DNA from: Tetramitus jugosus
Taxonomy: Eukaryota > Heterolobosea > Eutetramitea > Acrasida > Vahlkampfiidae
Reading direction: 5' to 3'
Length of the DNA: 64,000 nucleotides
Assembly: GCA_937625935.1 (NCBI GenBank)
Contig: OW569365.1
Coordinates: 186,001-250,000 of the forward strand
Shown: piece by piece, positions 56,368 to 62,008 of the stretch
How the letters are laid out: every line of letters starts with the position of its first letter
Numbering within the stretch: position 1 is the stretch's first letter
Translations under genes and position numbers: made by a program
The notes under the pieces: model-generated
Databases searched by the model: none
Told to the model about the DNA's origin: nothing
What the model saw: only the letters and a program-made list of their open reading frames with translations

Positions 56368-57204
56368 TTAATGGCTCTCCAGAATCTCTGCGATCGACTT
56401 TAACAATATTGATTCTTTGGGCAGGGACGGGTCGACATGACAACGACACTCTGGACACTTGTGTGCCGAATCCATACATCGTTCAACACACTTCTTACAA
56501 TAAGAATGACCACAGTGGAGAGTAGTTGGTTGTTTAAAATTCTCAAAACATATTGGACATTCAAGGAGTTCGCCTATACTCTGTATCCTATCATCTTGCT
56601 TTTCGCTTTTGTGTAGAAGAATTGCGTAATCGCGTTTCTCTTGCATTTTATGGGCAATAGCTATTTGTGCTTTCAGTCCCTCCTGTGCTTGTTCCATTTG
56701 GTAGATCCTCTTTCTCAGGGTTGTGGTATTGTGTTTTAGCTGAGTAATTGTGTTTGTTAGCTGAGCAATCCTTATCTTCTGTTCCTTGTTAATGGTTGTC
56801 AATGATTCCACATAGGTTTCATATTCCTCACATTTCTCCTGTGACGCCTCACACTCCTCTTCTTTCTCCTGTAACAGAGATTGTAAATTAATATAATGGG
56901 ACACAGCAATGCTCTTTTCAATAACCATTTCCTTGAGCTGCAACAAAGAGTTCATTTGACTACACTGCTTCTTCAGTGTGATACATTCTTCTTCTTTCTC
57001 TTCCTTCTGTTGCAGCAATGACCAGCGAAGTTGCCCCAATTCCCGATACTGTCGCATGAGTGCATCAAGCGACTCTTGTTTGTTCTGCAACAAAGAGTTC
57101 ACTTGGCTGCACTGCTTCTTTAAGGTGGCCGTCCACTGAAGAAATCGTATAAATAGGAGAAATAGTCAATTTACCCATCGGATTTGTTCATTGATTTTTT
57201 TCAT
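56368..57204 (-). CDS. RING-finger coiled-coil protein (probable E3 ubiquitin ligase)
   Basis: The C-terminus has a C3HC4 RING: CPICFENFKQPTTLHCGHSY, CKKC, CPEC, intact. The preceding 190 residues are coiled coil with internal duplication, TLKKQCSQ(V/M)NSLLQ occurring twice (coded near 57120-57080 and 56985-56940). No ATG is found in the frame upstream of the coiled coil. A 30-nt first exon at 57175-57204 (MKKINEQIRW) joined across a 39-nt intron (GTAAAT..TTCAG, phase 0) restores a start and gives 265 residues. The intron is short, so this model is tentative; its support is that the neighbouring F-box/chromo gene begins with the same MKKINEQ. Such layouts (coiled coil plus RING) are common in E3 ligases. 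Confidence 0.68.
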
Positions 57205-58007
57205 CTCAAAAAAACTTGAGAAACACATCAACTCGCTTTCCTATTATAATGAATACTGCCTCATGGTTCTGTTGGTGTTGGTTGTGTCACAAATTGTCAC
57301 AGGAGACTGCGAAGGTGATGTGCCCGTGCACATTTCATTGTTGATGGATTCAGAAGAGGATATCTCTGTGATGTCCTCTGTTTCGTGAAGACCTCGCATC
57401 AGTTTCTCAAGATCGTTTGTTTCTTCCTCAGTGTTGTTGCTGCTGTTGTTCTCAACTTCCCTTGGTGTTTGTGTTTTTTAAGGGCATATCGTGAAGCTGC
57501 AAAAGAAGGATTTATATCCGTTGCACGTGCAATCTATTCAAACGCTCTATCGGAATTCCCCACTAAAGCCATACAACTTGATCATCTGAATCTTTGCCTC
57601 CCTCGTCTTCTCATCAGGTATATTCTTGACCCAACTACATCATTTGTCAACAACATCACATACACAATTATACTCAAAAACAACAAGTATGGGCAATTGC
57701 AGCTATATACATACTCTGGAACGAAAAATCTTGACTTCCTATCAATGTACTTTTGTGTCCGATTCACTAATCGTTCACTCATCAACTGTAAGCATTCTGA
57801 TTTTTCAACCCACCACAGTGTACACATCGGGCACTGTTGCATTCGACGATAACTTGACTTCACAATTGGCAGGCAACCCCGCAACCACCTTCTTCACACT
57901 ACAATTAAAAAACATATACAAAACAATAGTTTAACTTTACAAAAACATTCTTACAAATTGTAATACACAAAACAAAAAATACATACGCCTTTAACAAATC
58001 ATTCTGT
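57205..58007. other. Gene-poor region with a gene relic
   Basis: About 800 bp without a convincing complete gene. It contains the PRP6-like relic (57481-57567), AT-rich sequence and short open frames on both strands that lack recognisable similarity. The promoter of the RING gene must lie at its left end and the 3' end of the F-box/chromo gene adjoins its right end. Confidence 0.5.
57481..57567 (+). pseudogene. PRP6-like (U4/U6-U5 tri-snRNP) gene fragment
   Basis: About 29 codons read RAYREAAKEGFISVARAIYS followed by NALSEFPTK. This resembles the HAT/TPR repeat of PRP6 (human: a segment ending [20 protein letters not shown]). The similarity stops abruptly after FPTK, exactly where the conserved KSxW should follow, and no ATG-started or spliced continuation is visible. 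I take it for a relic of a PRP6-type gene copied into this region. It is short, so chance similarity to another HAT-repeat protein is possible. Confidence 0.4.
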
Positions 58008-58514
58008 TTATTGATTAACAACTCTCCACCCTCCAGGGACCAATTCAAATTGTTCCCATGAACATGTCAAGTAGAATCCCTTCCACTTCACATAACCATA
58101 CCAAGAACCATTTTGATACTTCCAATCCAGAACATCATCAATTTGATAGAACTGTCCATTGGAGGTGTAGTTTTGGTGAATGTGACAGTACTGGGTTCCA
58201 CGTTTCCTTTGCAATTTGCACGGTAAGCCTGACTTGCAAACGGCCAAACAGTATGAGTACAAATTGTCCATATAAGACCTTATTGTTGATAGATTATTGA
58301 CCATCGAAGATCGAAAATCCCGACACGTCAATACCAAATTCAACACATCTTCTACACCAAGGAACGAACCAACTAGATACACAAATAAATCAATATGTAT
58401 ATCGGTTATTCTTACTTTTCTTTTGACTCCAAACTTTACCAATTGTTGGTGTTGGTTATGTCTTCTTTTGGCGCCTTTTCCTTGTTTTCCCATTTGTTCA
58501 TTGATTTTTTTCAT
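58008..58514 (-). CDS. Small F-box-like protein with Cys/His knuckle and chromo-like domain
   Basis: 168 residues from ATG 58514 (MKKINEQMGKQGKGAKRR); a second ATG at 58493 is possible, and the frame stays open farther upstream through the tandem duplication. After the basic start comes an F-box-like helix pair (IDLFVYLVGSFLGVEDVLNL, CRDFRSS), then a Cys/His motif (CKSGLPCKLQRKRGTQYCHI), and a chromo-like domain (VLDWKYQNGSWYGYVKWKGF, then CSWEQFEL). Chromo domains bind modified histone tails or nucleic acid; F-boxes bind Skp1. The combination in one small protein is unusual. It sits between a PRP6-like relic and a VPS35 fragment near a Fanzor gene. Function is unknown; whether it is expressed is unknown. 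Confidence 0.6.
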   Translation of the reverse strand: MKKINEQMGKQGKGAKRRHNQHQQLVKFGVKRKVRITDIHIDLFVYLVGSFLGVEDVLNLVLTCRDFRSSMVNNLSTIRSYMDNLYSYCLAVCKSGLPCKLQRKRGTQYCHIHQNYTSNGQFYQIDDVLDWKYQNGSWYGYVKWKGFYLTCSWEQFELVPGGWRVVNQ

Positions 58515-58773
58515 CAAAAAAACTTGCAAAAAACAGAAAACAAACACTCTGAAGGACATCGTGAGAGCGAGTGACCTGATGATGAGTGTGAGTTTTCTGA
58601 CGTTTGTCAAATTCTGTCCTACTATTGATACCATTAGAGATTTTTTCATCAAAAAAACTTGCAAAAAACAGAAAACAAACACTCTGAAGGACATCGTGAA
58701 TGCGAGTGACCTGATGATGAGTGTGAGTTTTCTGATGTTTGTCAAATTCTGTCCTACTATTGATACCACCATT
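58503..58773. repeat. 136-bp near-perfect tandem duplication
   Basis: Copies 58503-58638 and 58639-58773 differ at only about three bases (near GTGAGAGCG/GTGAATGCG and TCTGACG/TCTGATG), by one T in a T-run, and by a CCA insertion near the end. Both strands remain open across the two copies. On the minus strand they would encode two copies of a 45-residue hydrophobic peptide in frame with the F-box/chromo gene. The starting motif GATTTTTTTCATCAAAAAAA also occurs, slightly changed, at 57193. The low divergence means the duplication is recent. Confidence 0.9.
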
Positions 58774-58787
58774 AGAGAGGTGTTGAA

Positions 58788-59423
58788 TTGTCCGATAACT
58801 TGAGTATTCAGATCTCATTGATGACACTTGCTCTTCAAACATATCCTGATAACACTGACGATGTCAACAAGATTATTAATAACATTGCTAGTCAATTGAA
58901 TAGCACTGCACTTGCTTCGAATGAAATTGTAGACATGTTGAAGCGATTGTTGTTGGTGCCACTCGAGTCATACAACAATGTGCTAACAGTTTTGAAGTTG
59001 GAGAAGTATGGTGATATTATTCATTCTCTTGGATATGAACAGAGAAAGTTTATTGCACTGAGCATTGTGAGATGCGCACTTGACAATGGACACAAGATTT
59101 CAACATTTGAACAAGTGAACAAACTGTTTGATTTGATTCGTCCACTGTTGAAGGATGAGGAAGACCAGACAACATTCTCACCTTCTGACGACTCACCAAT
59201 AGCTGCAACATTGCTCGAAGATTTCGAAGAAGAACAGAACTTGATTGCCAGATTGGTTCATTTGTTTGATAATAGCGATTCTGATCAATTGTTTAAAGTT
59301 TTGGCCGCAGCCAGAAAGCACTTTGGTCAGGGTGGTGTCAAGAGAATTCAATACACATTGGTACCGCTTGTATTCTCCTACTTGAAACTTGCTCAGAGAA
59401 TCTACAATGCACACTGCAAATAG
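58788..59423 (+). pseudogene. VPS35: VPS35 (retromer) fragment, lacking both ends
   Basis: The frame reads LSIQISLMTLALQTYPDN, then LLLVPLESYNNVLTVLKLEK, EEEQNLIARLVHLFDNSD, ARKHFGQGGVKRIQYTLVPL and VFSYLKLAQR, and stops. This matches roughly residues 385-600 of human VPS35 (796 residues). The N-terminal half, with the VPS26-binding PRLYLM motif, and the C-terminal VPS29-binding solenoid are absent from the window. Similarity begins right after the tandem duplication and ends at a TAG soon followed by the Fanzor promoter region. VPS35 is an essential retromer scaffold, so a full copy should exist elsewhere and this is probably a truncated duplicate. The internal frame is intact, which suggests it is young. 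Expression as a short protein from ATG 58821 cannot be excluded. Confidence 0.8.
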
Positions 59424-59750
59424 ACACCTCTTGTCGACTCTCCATCTTTTTTGATTGATTTGGTTGTTGTTGTTGATGTTCGTTGTGCGACTTGTGTTTT
59501 TCGTTGTTGTTGTCGCGTTCAAGATTGGATAGATAGGTGGATATATTATAAAAAAATACAATAAATGTTGTATCAGTTTCCTCTAAGCTGCGGAATTGGT
59601 GCAGTTGTAAAAATTTCCGTTGAGACTGTCTTTACAACGGCAACGGCCATCTACCTCGGTTTAAAAAGCGCTGTCTTTTTCGCTGTTTGATTCATCTCAC
59701 ACAACAAATACAACACAACAAATACACCACACAACAAATACAATAACATT
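59424..59750 (+). promoter_or_regulatory. Region upstream of Fanzor, probable promoter and leader
   Basis: 327 bp between the VPS35 fragment and the Fanzor ATG. TATATTATAAAAAAAT at about 59541-59556 is a TATA-like, AT-rich box. The leader just before the ATG is A/C-rich. No protein-coding potential or clear terminal inverted repeat matching the downstream side was found by eye. The left end of the mobile element, if there is one, should lie here or farther left. Confidence 0.4.
59701..59741 (+). repeat. Three direct repeats ACAACAAATAC before the Fanzor ATG
   Basis: Copies at 59701-59711, 59715-59725 and 59731-59741, the last ending nine bases before the ATG. Spacing is 14 and 16 bases. They could be part of an A-rich translational leader, a binding site, or a subterminal repeat of the element; the sequence does not decide. 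Confidence 0.7.
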
Positions 59751-61664
59751 ATGCCACGAGGCGTGCCTAAGGACGGTAAGAGAAAGAGAAAGAGAGAGAC
59801 TGTCAAAAAGAATGAATACTCATCACATTACGTGGTCAAGGTCGGTCTGAAGTCTCTGTTGTTGCATCATCCAACTCTGTTACCAATCATACAAACTCAA
59901 GCTCTGGAGATTACAAGGATTGCTCTTCGACTCACAAGATTTATAAACATATTTGTTTTGAGGCACTTGGAGAACAATTGTGATATCCCTCTCTTGAATC
60001 AAGGATTTATTCAACGAATCGGTTCAGTGTTGTTTGGACGCAAGTCGAAGACAAGAGACGATAATGTCAACCTCATCAACGGGTCAGTCAACATGGATGA
60101 CGTAATAATCAAGCTAAGGAAGATTTGTGAGAAGTTATCCAAATCCATCAATTACGTTGCCAAGTCTCTCAATGTCAATATTTCTAACATGCTCAAGTTC
60201 ACATTGGAACAAAGACTGAGAAAGTACTTGAGAGTGAGGATGGCTCAATTGCACAATGGTCAATCAATCCCCAGGTCTGAATACAGAAGAGTAGTAGAAT
60301 ACATCATCAGAAAGTTGACATTTGTCACTCCAGTTTATGATTTTGTCAAACTGCCTCCAAAAGAGTTGATAGAGACTATTCCTGTGTTGATCCAAGAGGT
60401 TCGAACATTTGTTGGTGCTGAAACCGACGAAGTGGTTGATGAATCGTTTGTGAACAACAACACCAATAACATGCTGAAGTTTTACTGGCATGTTCAACAG
60501 TTTCTGATTGTCAATGGAACAAAATCATTTGCATTGTTGCCCTTGTCCCACTTTAAATGTAGATGCATGGAGATAGGTACAACGGACCTGATAGACATGC
60601 TCCAACAGAAGAAGAAGGGAAATGTACAAGTAATTGAACCCATTGAATTGAAGTATAATCTCAAGTGTTTGAATGTTGGAACAAAGAAGATTCAAATCGA
60701 CTCAATCAGAACAGACGGTATTCAGGCCTCTGTTGTTCTCAGACATCAACTCGTTGGCATCCACAAGAACAATAAGGCAAAGGTATCCAAGGGCCAGAAA
60801 GAAGCAAAGAAGATGAAGAAAGAAGCAACTATTGTTGATCAAAATGCAGATTACTTGATTGGTATCGATCCTGGTATTGTCACATTGATGAGTTGTGCAG
60901 ATTCAGATGGTAAAAAGTGGGAGTTCTCCAATAAGGCATACAGACGACTGTCTCATCATTCACAGAACGCCAAACGTTTGTTGAAATACAAAGCAAAATG
61001 GAACACGAAAACTGGAAAAGATTTAGATGAACTCCATAACTCGATCAAACAAGCCAGTGTATCGACAAGTGATCTGTTTATCGAACACATTGATTCTGTT
61101 TTGAAAGTCGAAGATGACTTGCTTGGTTTTTATTGCACTCCAAAGGTGAAGAGACTGAATTGGGACAGCTATATTATGAGAGACAAAACAATTGCTGGAG
61201 TAATGAATGATTTTCACAAAAGAGCAAATGGAAGAAAGATGGTCATTGGCATGGGCAATGCTGGTTTCAAAAATAGTTACAGAGGACATGCTTCAACGCC
61301 CAAGGGCAAGCTGTTGAAGAAACTGAATGAACGATTTGAAGTGAAAATGATTGACGAATTCATGACCAGCCAAAAATGTTGTGCTTGCCATTCCCATTTG
61401 AAGCCAGTCAAGCACAAACGAATGGACAAGAAAGGTGTATCGGCAATCTCTATTGTACGAGGAGTTAAGCAGTGTGCAACCACTAAATGTTTAGTGACTC
61501 ACAACAGAGACATCAATGCGGCCAAGAACATGCTCCATCTACTGAGAACAGAAATGGATGGACAGTCACGTCCCAATGCCTTCAAGAGGAAGAAAAAGGT
61601 CGCAAAAGAATTAATCAAAATGGTGGAACACCTCCAAGGCTCACTCCATCAAGCTGCTATGTAA
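59751..61664 (+). CDS. Fanzor, eukaryotic TnpB-like RNA-guided endonuclease
   Basis: 637 residues, single intact frame. The N-terminus (MPRGVPKDGKRKRKRE) is a likely nuclear signal. An alpha/beta N-terminal half corresponds to the wedge/REC part. The RuvC domain is complete: RuvC-I GIDPGIVTL with D373; MVIGMGNAGF around residue 500 where TnpB has its RuvC-II strand but no Glu; IDEFMTSQKC with E536, the shifted catalytic Glu known from many Fanzors; a zinc module CCACH ... C-ATTK-C; and RuvC-III NRDINAAKNML with D587. Fanzors are guided by an RNA encoded at the 3' end of their locus and cut DNA next to a short motif; one from Naegleria lovaniensis is among those tested biochemically. Two stem-loops directly follow the stop. 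Activity of this copy is inferred from intact residues. Confidence 0.93.
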   Translation: MPRGVPKDGKRKRKRETVKKNEYSSHYVVKVGLKSLLLHHPTLLPIIQTQALEITRIALRLTRFINIFVLRHLENNCDIPLLNQGFIQRIGSVLFGRKSKTRDDNVNLINGSVNMDDVIIKLRKICEKLSKSINYVAKSLNVNISNMLKFTLEQRLRKYLRVRMAQLHNGQSIPRSEYRRVVEYIIRKLTFVTPVYDFVKLPPKELIETIPVLIQEVRTFVGAETDEVVDESFVNNNTNNMLKFYWHVQQFLIVNGTKSFALLPLSHFKCRCMEIGTTDLIDMLQQKKKGNVQVIEPIELKYNLKCLNVGTKKIQIDSIRTDGIQASVVLRHQLVGIHKNNKAKVSKGQKEAKKMKKEATIVDQNADYLIGIDPGIVTLMSCADSDGKKWEFSNKAYRRLSHHSQNAKRLLKYKAKWNTKTGKDLDELHNSIKQASVSTSDLFIEHIDSVLKVEDDLLGFYCTPKVKRLNWDSYIMRDKTIAGVMNDFHKRANGRKMVIGMGNAGFKNSYRGHASTPKGKLLKKLNERFEVKMIDEFMTSQKCCACHSHLKPVKHKRMDKKGVSAISIVRGVKQCATTKCLVTHNRDINAAKNMLHLLRTEMDGQSRPNAFKRKKKVAKELIKMVEHLQGSLHQAAM

Positions 61665-61728
61665 GTCCCGATTATGTAGGAGCGTTAAGGTGTCTTATCG
61701 GGAAATCATAATTTTTTTATTATGGTTT
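61662..61728 (+). ncRNA. Candidate Fanzor guide-RNA scaffold (omega/fRNA), two stem-loops
   Basis: Stem-loop 1: TCCCGAT at 61666-61672 pairs with ATCGGGA at 61697-61703 (7 bp, 24-nt loop). Stem-loop 2: AAATCATAAT at 61703-61712 pairs with ATTATGGTTT at 61719-61728 (10 bp with one G-U pair, six-T loop). They begin two bases after the Fanzor stop. In TnpB and Fanzor loci the scaffold RNA overlaps the 3' end of the gene and the element's right end, with the guide taken from the flanking DNA, so the place and form fit. The T-rich loop could instead be part of a polyadenylation or transcription-end signal. The real 5' end would probably lie inside the Fanzor frame. Confidence 0.4.
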
Positions 61729-62008
61729 GATCGACAGTGGACCGCCACCTTAAGGTGACACATTCTTCTTCTTTCACTTGATGAACATGTTCCAAAGCTT
61801 GGTACCGTTTCTCCCACCAGAGGCATTTCCCTTCTTTCTCCCGTTCCAACATAAACAAACGTATATATTCCCTATCCAAAGATAGATACTGTTCTTGCAT
61901 CGTATCATAAATGAGCTTTGCTATCCCTAAAATCACAAATATTGTGATCCACAAAAAAATTGTCAAACCTGATGGAGGATTCTCAGTTGTTTGCAGATCG
62001 GGTACCAT
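61706..62008 (-). CDS. Short membrane/coiled-coil ORF, possibly truncated
   Basis: 100 residues from ATG 62008. One hydrophobic segment (GLTIFLWITIFVILGIAKLI) and a charged helix ending HQVKEEECVTLRWRSTVD. The helix resembles the coiled coil of the RING protein (KEEECITLKKQCSQ), with 20 of 21 bases shared near 61752-61772 and 56979-56999. The likeness ends at the palindrome CACCTTAAGGTG (61744-61755), beyond which the frame only reads through the Fanzor 3' stem-loops. This suggests a gene cut by the mobile element, or a solo N-terminal fragment. Whether it is expressed is not known. Confidence 0.45.
   Translation of the reverse strand: MVPDLQTTENPPSGLTIFLWITIFVILGIAKLIYDTMQEQYLSLDREYIRLFMLEREKEGKCLWWEKRYQALEHVHQVKEEECVTLRWRSTVDQTIIKKL

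Follow-up and report, generated by a model that had tools for sequence, protein, structure and literature searches.

The Fanzor1 nuclease encoded in the window, i.e., the whole stretch of 64,000 nucleotides of Tetramitus jugosus DNA analysed here, is carried by a multi-copy transposon bounded by TIRs and TTAA target sites, and this enzyme, apparently functional, probably acts as the homing and retention device of an element in which no transposase has been recognised. The main evidence comes from 5′-truncated copies of the element, some of which repeat, directly to their left, TTAA and a short piece of the host DNA that flanks them on the right.

The element and the host gene in which it resides are organised in the window as follows:

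57120..61753, plus strand: whole transposon, from TTAA to TTAA, 4,634 bp including both TTAA (TIR search)
57120..57136, plus strand: left TIR, TTAAGGTGGCCGTCCAC, including the TTAA target-site duplication at 57120-57123 (TIR search)
61737..61753, minus strand: right TIR, reverse complement TTAAGGTGGCGGTCCAC, including the TTAA at 61750-61753 (TIR search)
59573..61728, plus strand: core common to both TIR families and to both classes of left half (blast boundaries between copies, comparison of ends)
58733..59413, plus strand: piece captured from the VPS35 gene of the host, 684 bp, 97.8% identical to the donor at C22:81200-84200
58008..58772, minus strand: 254-aa ORF of the element, whose best domain match is a sub-threshold zf-TRM13
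56368..57119, minus strand: 3′ portion of the host gene that the element interrupts, with coiled coil and RING (domain scan, joining of the flanks)
61754..62008, minus strand: 5′ portion of the host gene that the element interrupts (joining of the flanks)

The TIRs are 17 bp long and are found together with the TTAA target-site duplication (TSD), the combination that marks a piggyBac-type element; L010, a copy located on a different contig, aligns across all of 57120..61753 at 98.1%. The element interrupts a RING-finger gene, a single open frame for a coiled-coil RING protein being obtained on the minus strand when the element is removed and its flanks are joined. In the various copies the common core is flanked by either of two TIR families, TTAAGGTGGCGGTCTAC and TTAAGGATGTAGTTCG(G/T)TG, and the left half of the element also differs, one class, that of the window, containing the VPS35 piece and another a 500-bp module. 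The VPS35 frame terminates within the element; the start and the end of the donor gene (L069) are both missing from the captured piece. The left half also contains a tandem duplication of 128 bp (58506-58633 and 58641-58768, 97.7%). Elsewhere in the window, an uninterrupted ORF of 6,965 aa with RCC1 and EGF/teneurin-like repeats occupies 10994-31891 of the minus strand.

No transposase domain was found in the four element ORFs scanned, Fanzor included, nor was a piggyBac match found within the element. The rest of the genome contains 12 piggyBac-domain matches, and at the 10 piggyBac loci examined no ends resembling the Fanzor TIRs were seen within flanks of ~1.5 kb, ends lying beyond this distance being bound to escape. 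Within these flanks none of the loci presents itself as an autonomous partner: L036 and L037 have other ends, the boundaries of L031, L032 and L038 lack such ends, and a search for inverted TTAA ends at L029, L030 and L033-L035 gave weak pairs, the best of them (L030) with 10 of 16 bases; matches to a 10-base TIR pattern, with 1-2 mismatches, occur at piggyBac loci singly and not in pairs. L036 (C18) and L037 (C39) are themselves piggyBac-domain elements, 99.95% identical, with a 581-aa ORF and the ends TTCGGCCAGATTTTACC, a pair that apparently reflects recent activity.

The nuclease gene itself comprises two entries:

59751..61664, plus strand: Fanzor1 ORF, starting with ATG, 637 aa, with the basic N-terminus PRGVPKDGKRKRKR
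60867, 61356 and 61509, plus strand, within this ORF: catalytic codons of D373, E536 and D587, respectively

The initial annotation had described an intact gene of 637 residues, and indeed the frame opens with ATG and has no internal stop; D373, E536 and D587, which it had named, read as it gave them and, like the four cysteines of the full zinc module that it had claimed (C543, C546, C575 and C580), are invariant in 16 of 16 aligned full-length copies. Its view that the glutamate is absent from the canonical RuvC-II position also holds, the sequence there being GMGNAG, and the shifted position that it had proposed is borne out by E536, which is followed by FMTSQK and then by C543, in keeping with the alternative RuvC-II glutamate, 6 residues ahead of the zinc finger, by which Fanzor1 is defined together with the DPG motif (PMC10711439). 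The latter is present as GIDPG at 371-375, D373 being retained in 16 of 16 aligned copies; the C4 zinc finger is followed by the RuvC-III RD in the form NRD587, and the TDG motif of the Fanzor1 WED domain (PMC10711439) is found as T321-D322-G323.

The annotation had also called the protein a Fanzor/TnpB-like nuclease and had suggested a profile search, which returned Pfam PF07282 (E 9e-10). The closest relative with a solved structure is SpuFz1 (8gkh; phmmer, E 1.1e-15), the alignment placing D373, E536 and D587 opposite the IDP, LLDEY and NRD motifs, respectively, and the first seven entries in a comparison by fold are all Fanzors. The metal-binding or catalytic residues of SpuFz1 are D383, E541 and D606 (PMC10432273), which we read as the likely counterparts of D373, E536 and D587. 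The AlphaFold model, in which the initial annotation had wished to see whether the three residues meet, has a mean pLDDT of 58.6 and is poor at the active site, with values below 50 at 536-550 and 577-588, the regions that hold E536 and D587. Judged at the level of sequence, the similarity to Fanzor/TnpB families, as seen with PF07282, with SpuFz1 and with the matches in the genome itself, is well above chance; the protein belongs to Fanzor1, as a new member, and its ORF apparently encodes a functional nuclease. No viral relative was confirmed in one IMG/VR scan.

At least 66 stretches of the same genome (26.3 Mb, 56 contigs) match the Fanzor protein; among the matches listed, 19 span residues 1-637 free of stops, and three, the window copy included, stand at 100% identity. 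The alignment comprised 16 of these 19 frames, the other three being L022 and two copies at 64% identity, and the median dN/dS was 0.18 (96 of 120 pairs, those with dS >0.05). The nuclease ORF is under purifying selection. L045 (C19:169366-171741) has a Fanzor protein 64% identical to that of the window, yet the last 154 bp of the element, its right end, show 99% DNA identity, so that right ends seem to have been homogenised or swapped between Fanzor lineages. L044 (C32:2600-5200) represents a second Fanzor lineage, at 39-44% identity and divided over two open stretches; its TIR is of the second type, and its right-end stretch matches itself alone in the genome.

Scanning for TIRs and the right end, followed by reading of the left junctions, yielded 17 loci that have a right end without a recognisable left end and 2 with the left end only (sign test, p 0.0007). 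Three loci were kept out of the 17, namely C8:461447, in which the left end is present and has a small deletion, C39, in which it has diverged, and C52:91097, which is a segmental copy of C47. In 5 of the 17 truncated copies, TTAA and ~6-22 nt of the right flank are repeated directly to the left of the element, the ranges of length being due to microhomology at the join. This footprint amounts to TTAA plus 18-20 nt in L040 (TTAA-GATGTATGTGACTGTTTG on the left and TTAA-GATGTATGTTACTGTTCG on the right, 16 of 18 alike), 21-22 nt in L041 (left copy one base short), 8-11 nt in L049, 6-9 nt in L018 and 12 nt in L011, in the last case with 6 nt of filler. A footprint score of at least 12 was reached by these 5 of 17, compared with none of 272 mismatched pairings of left and right flanks, whose highest score was 9 (once), and in 20,000 permutations a score of 12 was never reached by a mismatched pair. 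The remaining 12 truncated copies have no clear footprint: 10 have none and two, L020 and L028, repeat just TTAA and 1 nt, the TTAA lying 4-6 nt from the junction.

No footprint was detected at the left junction of the 17 scanned copies that have a left end, nor, by eye, in the window copy, nor in the left-only copies C12 and C45; longer duplications were absent from the top matches in at least 297 nt of left sequence at 16 of the 17 truncated loci (all but L011). A 13-nt match to TTAA plus right flank in L022 lies inside the element, away from the junction, and was taken as chance. The solo right ends L039 (108 bp) and L040 (118 bp) cover just 61640..61753. A 35-bp solo right end occurs in L042 (C47) and L068 (C52) with flanks common to both contigs, and is probably an old insertion within a segmental duplication.

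If the guide corresponds to the right flank and the empty allele is cut ~20 nt past TTAA, aborted copying of the element from right to left should leave TTAA and at most ~20 nt of right flank to the left of the truncated copy; the footprint fits a cut of the empty allele some 16-22 nt past TTAA followed by aborted right-to-left copying. The elements of such a guide RNA can be placed at the right end:

61640..61753, plus strand: predicted omega-RNA scaffold, with hairpins and an internal TTAAGG to which the terminal CCTTAA is complementary
61754..61775, plus strand: predicted guide, the right flank adjoining TTAA, its extent taken from the footprint lengths; the target would be the same stretch in the empty allele

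The internal TTAAGG lies ~60 nt ahead of the terminal CCTTAA and is carried by 19 of 23 distinct right ends, among them the one of the L044 lineage (39-44% identical), being lost from L011, L021 and L023 through deletions in this stretch and changed to TTAAGT in L039. Since the ORFs of L011, L021 and L023 are open and full-length, these copies, if the scaffold matters, would need RNA from others. Folding gives z-scores of -2.40 for 61640-61753 and -1.35 for 61661-61753; compensatory changes affect 2 of 18 consensus pairs, and the covariation term is weak (+0.94). Structure and conservation of the right end are at most suggestive of a 3′ omega-RNA with a flank-derived guide; in eukaryotic transposons the TSD belongs to the RNA scaffold (PMC10711439, Fig. 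5 legend). A guide within the element, which would be the TIR itself since the shared core ends at 61728, was rejected, the footprints placing the break in the host flank.

The two sides of the insertion sites are not alike. Immediately before TTAA, at -1, 24 of 25 left flanks have A or T, as against 19 of 36 at +1 of the right flanks (p 0.0002), and at -2 there is C or T in 22 of 25 left flanks, and A in none, as against 19 of 36 at the mirror position on the right (p 0.005), so that left flanks mostly read YWTTAA (n=25); L020, with GC ahead of TTAA and hence C at -1, and L028, with TT, stand outside these 25. TTAA being palindromic, the transposase would be expected to treat both sides alike, and the asymmetry suggests that an oriented reader recognises the left flank, although it could alternatively be due to the transposase. 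The right end of both TIR families reads CCTTAA (CCTTGG in L026), and a reader of YWTTAA would refuse this right end of its own element.

The course of events that we propose begins with a transposase that, acting in trans, would carry the element to new TTAA sites. Transcription of the right end would then yield an omega-RNA whose scaffold ends in TTAA and whose guide is the adjoining host sequence, 16-22 nt long; this RNA would lead the nuclease to the corresponding site of a sister or homologous chromosome that lacks the element, where the nuclease would recognise YWTTAA as TAM and cut 16-22 nt beyond. The filled site would escape cutting because CC precedes its TTAA, and repair of the break would insert a copy of the element, synthesised from its right end towards its left. 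Aborted copying followed by end joining would produce a 5′-truncated element with TTAA and up to ~22 nt of right flank at its left. The upper bound of ~22 nt agrees with the distances from the TAM at which SpuFz1 (16-21 nt) and NlovFz2 (19 nt) cut (PMC10432273), and since the duplications vary from 6 to 22 nt, trimming must be assumed.

One-ended or otherwise aberrant transposition, in which the transposase joins the right end alone to the target and thereby generates truncated copies with variable TSDs, is an unlikely origin of these scars. Intact right ends alongside variable left ends are what it predicts, the footprinted truncated copies still begin at TTAA, the transposase target, and the process was proposed for CRe-1,2,3 by Bao and Jurka in 2013 (PMC3627910). 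However, copies having both ends are bordered by duplicated TTAA (4 bp) and do not repeat the flank, and one-ended events should not yield duplications of 10-26 bp. Furthermore, in Chlamydomonas the effect tracks the Fanzor-bearing elements, the Fanzor-less Helitron-1N1 having a TSD in 1 of 200 elements, even if the authors considered both the Fanzor protein and the length of the elements as possible causes of this contrast, without deciding between them (PMC3627910).

Quite unlikely, too, is abortive gap repair following excision by the transposase, with Fanzor as a bystander or serving another purpose. Such repair would generate truncated copies and also the internal deletions seen in L027 and L047, and the single duplicated nucleotide of L020 and L028 is compatible with it; on the other hand, an excision break leaves no right flank on the left, so that TTAA and 6-22 nt would be unexpected in the five footprinted copies, whose scars would instead call for a break inside the right flank.

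The association of 5′ truncation with a TSD of 10-26 bp is the classic signature of target-primed reverse transcription, and the truncation, the length of the duplications, the filler and the microhomology at left junctions would all be compatible with the reverse transcription of element transcripts by a LINE machinery. Nevertheless, the right ends examined have no A-tail, their 3′ end being the transposon terminus followed by TTAA, and copies with both TIRs show TTAA duplications only, which makes this origin very improbable. Finally, random truncation and decay around a nuclease inactive at these sites, for which the 10 of 17 truncated copies without any footprint might speak, is hardly credible in view of five footprints against 0 of 20,000 permutations, of the purifying selection on the ORF and of the 17:2 asymmetry of ends.

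Homing by Fanzor1, on the other hand, turns the footprints into a specific and testable statement of what a Fanzor does. From the scars one can apparently read off YWTTAA as the TAM, up to ~22 nt as the distance of the cut, and right to left as the direction in which the element is copied, so that the role of Fanzor becomes testable in any genome that has Fanzor elements, and a concrete TAM and guide are available for bench tests of the 637-aa protein. The benefit of Fanzor to its carriers was called unknown in the Discussion of a 2023 paper (PMC10432273), and, if the homing reading is true, gene drives guided by RNA have existed in nature as a property of eukaryotic transposons themselves. 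As far as the passages reached by word search go, no TTAA or piggyBac carrier of Fanzor is mentioned in PMC3627910 and PMC10711439, nor piggyBac in PMC10432273, and such a carrier is also absent from the titles and abstract openings of the Fanzor papers listed; the footprint reading is not stated in these titles and openings either, which leaves its absence from the literature unproven.

Among known systems, SpuFz1 and its element Spu-1 of Spizellomyces punctatus (Saito et al. 2023, PMC10432273) offer a close parallel: a Fanzor1 with the shifted glutamate, carried by a multi-copy TIR element with no transposase found between the repeats and with ghost loci devoid of the ORF. The right-end RNA of Spu-1 is likened to the one predicted here, and its TAM, CATA, with a conserved CA outside the left repeat, finds its counterpart in the YWTTAA left flanks (PMC10432273). 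Unlike Spu-1, the present element has different TIRs and a different target, TTAA, its protein is 16-18% identical to SpuFz1 over the structural alignment, and it displays host-gene capture and flank-duplication footprints, its RNA and cutting being predictions. GtFz1 of Guillardia theta, also a Fanzor1, has the TAM TTAAN, yet its locus, unlike that described here, seems to be without inverted repeats and has no clear association with a transposase (PMC10432273).

The Helitron-borne Fanzor1 elements CRe-1,2,3 of Chlamydomonas (Bao and Jurka 2013, PMC3627910) resemble the present case in having 5′-truncated, 3′-intact copies with short, variable TSDs at a target tetranucleotide, and copies with an exact 5′ end and no such TSDs. 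The duplications of their truncated copies measure ~7-19 bp, almost all directly downstream of TTTT or T-rich tetranucleotides, and some are far longer (44-443 bp) (PMC3627910). The carrier there is a rolling-circle Helitron with TTTT as target, as opposed to the cut-and-paste TTAA type found here, and the pattern was attributed to one-ended transposition (PMC3627910), at a time when the nuclease function of Fanzor had yet to be recognised; homing would re-explain these variable duplications of 2013. Similar scars, in which 5′ truncation goes together with a brief repeat of flanking DNA at the target motif, appear in two unrelated transposon types, and by our reading the factor common to both would be Fanzor and not the transposase. 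We incline to the more general view that Fanzor may serve eukaryotic transposons as their natural, RNA-guided homing nuclease, with a guide derived from the insertion site and a TAM made of the target motif and 1-2 flanking bases, empty sites being cut, filled sites spared and the element copied from its right end. The same logic has been described for TnpB of the IS200/IS605 elements (PMC11870625), in which the guide derives from the insertion site and cutting of the empty copy favours the filled state, as is proposed here; the TnpB gene drive operates in bacteria, on plasmids (PMC11870625), whereas the present case concerns a eukaryotic TTAA transposon and its scars of aborted copying.
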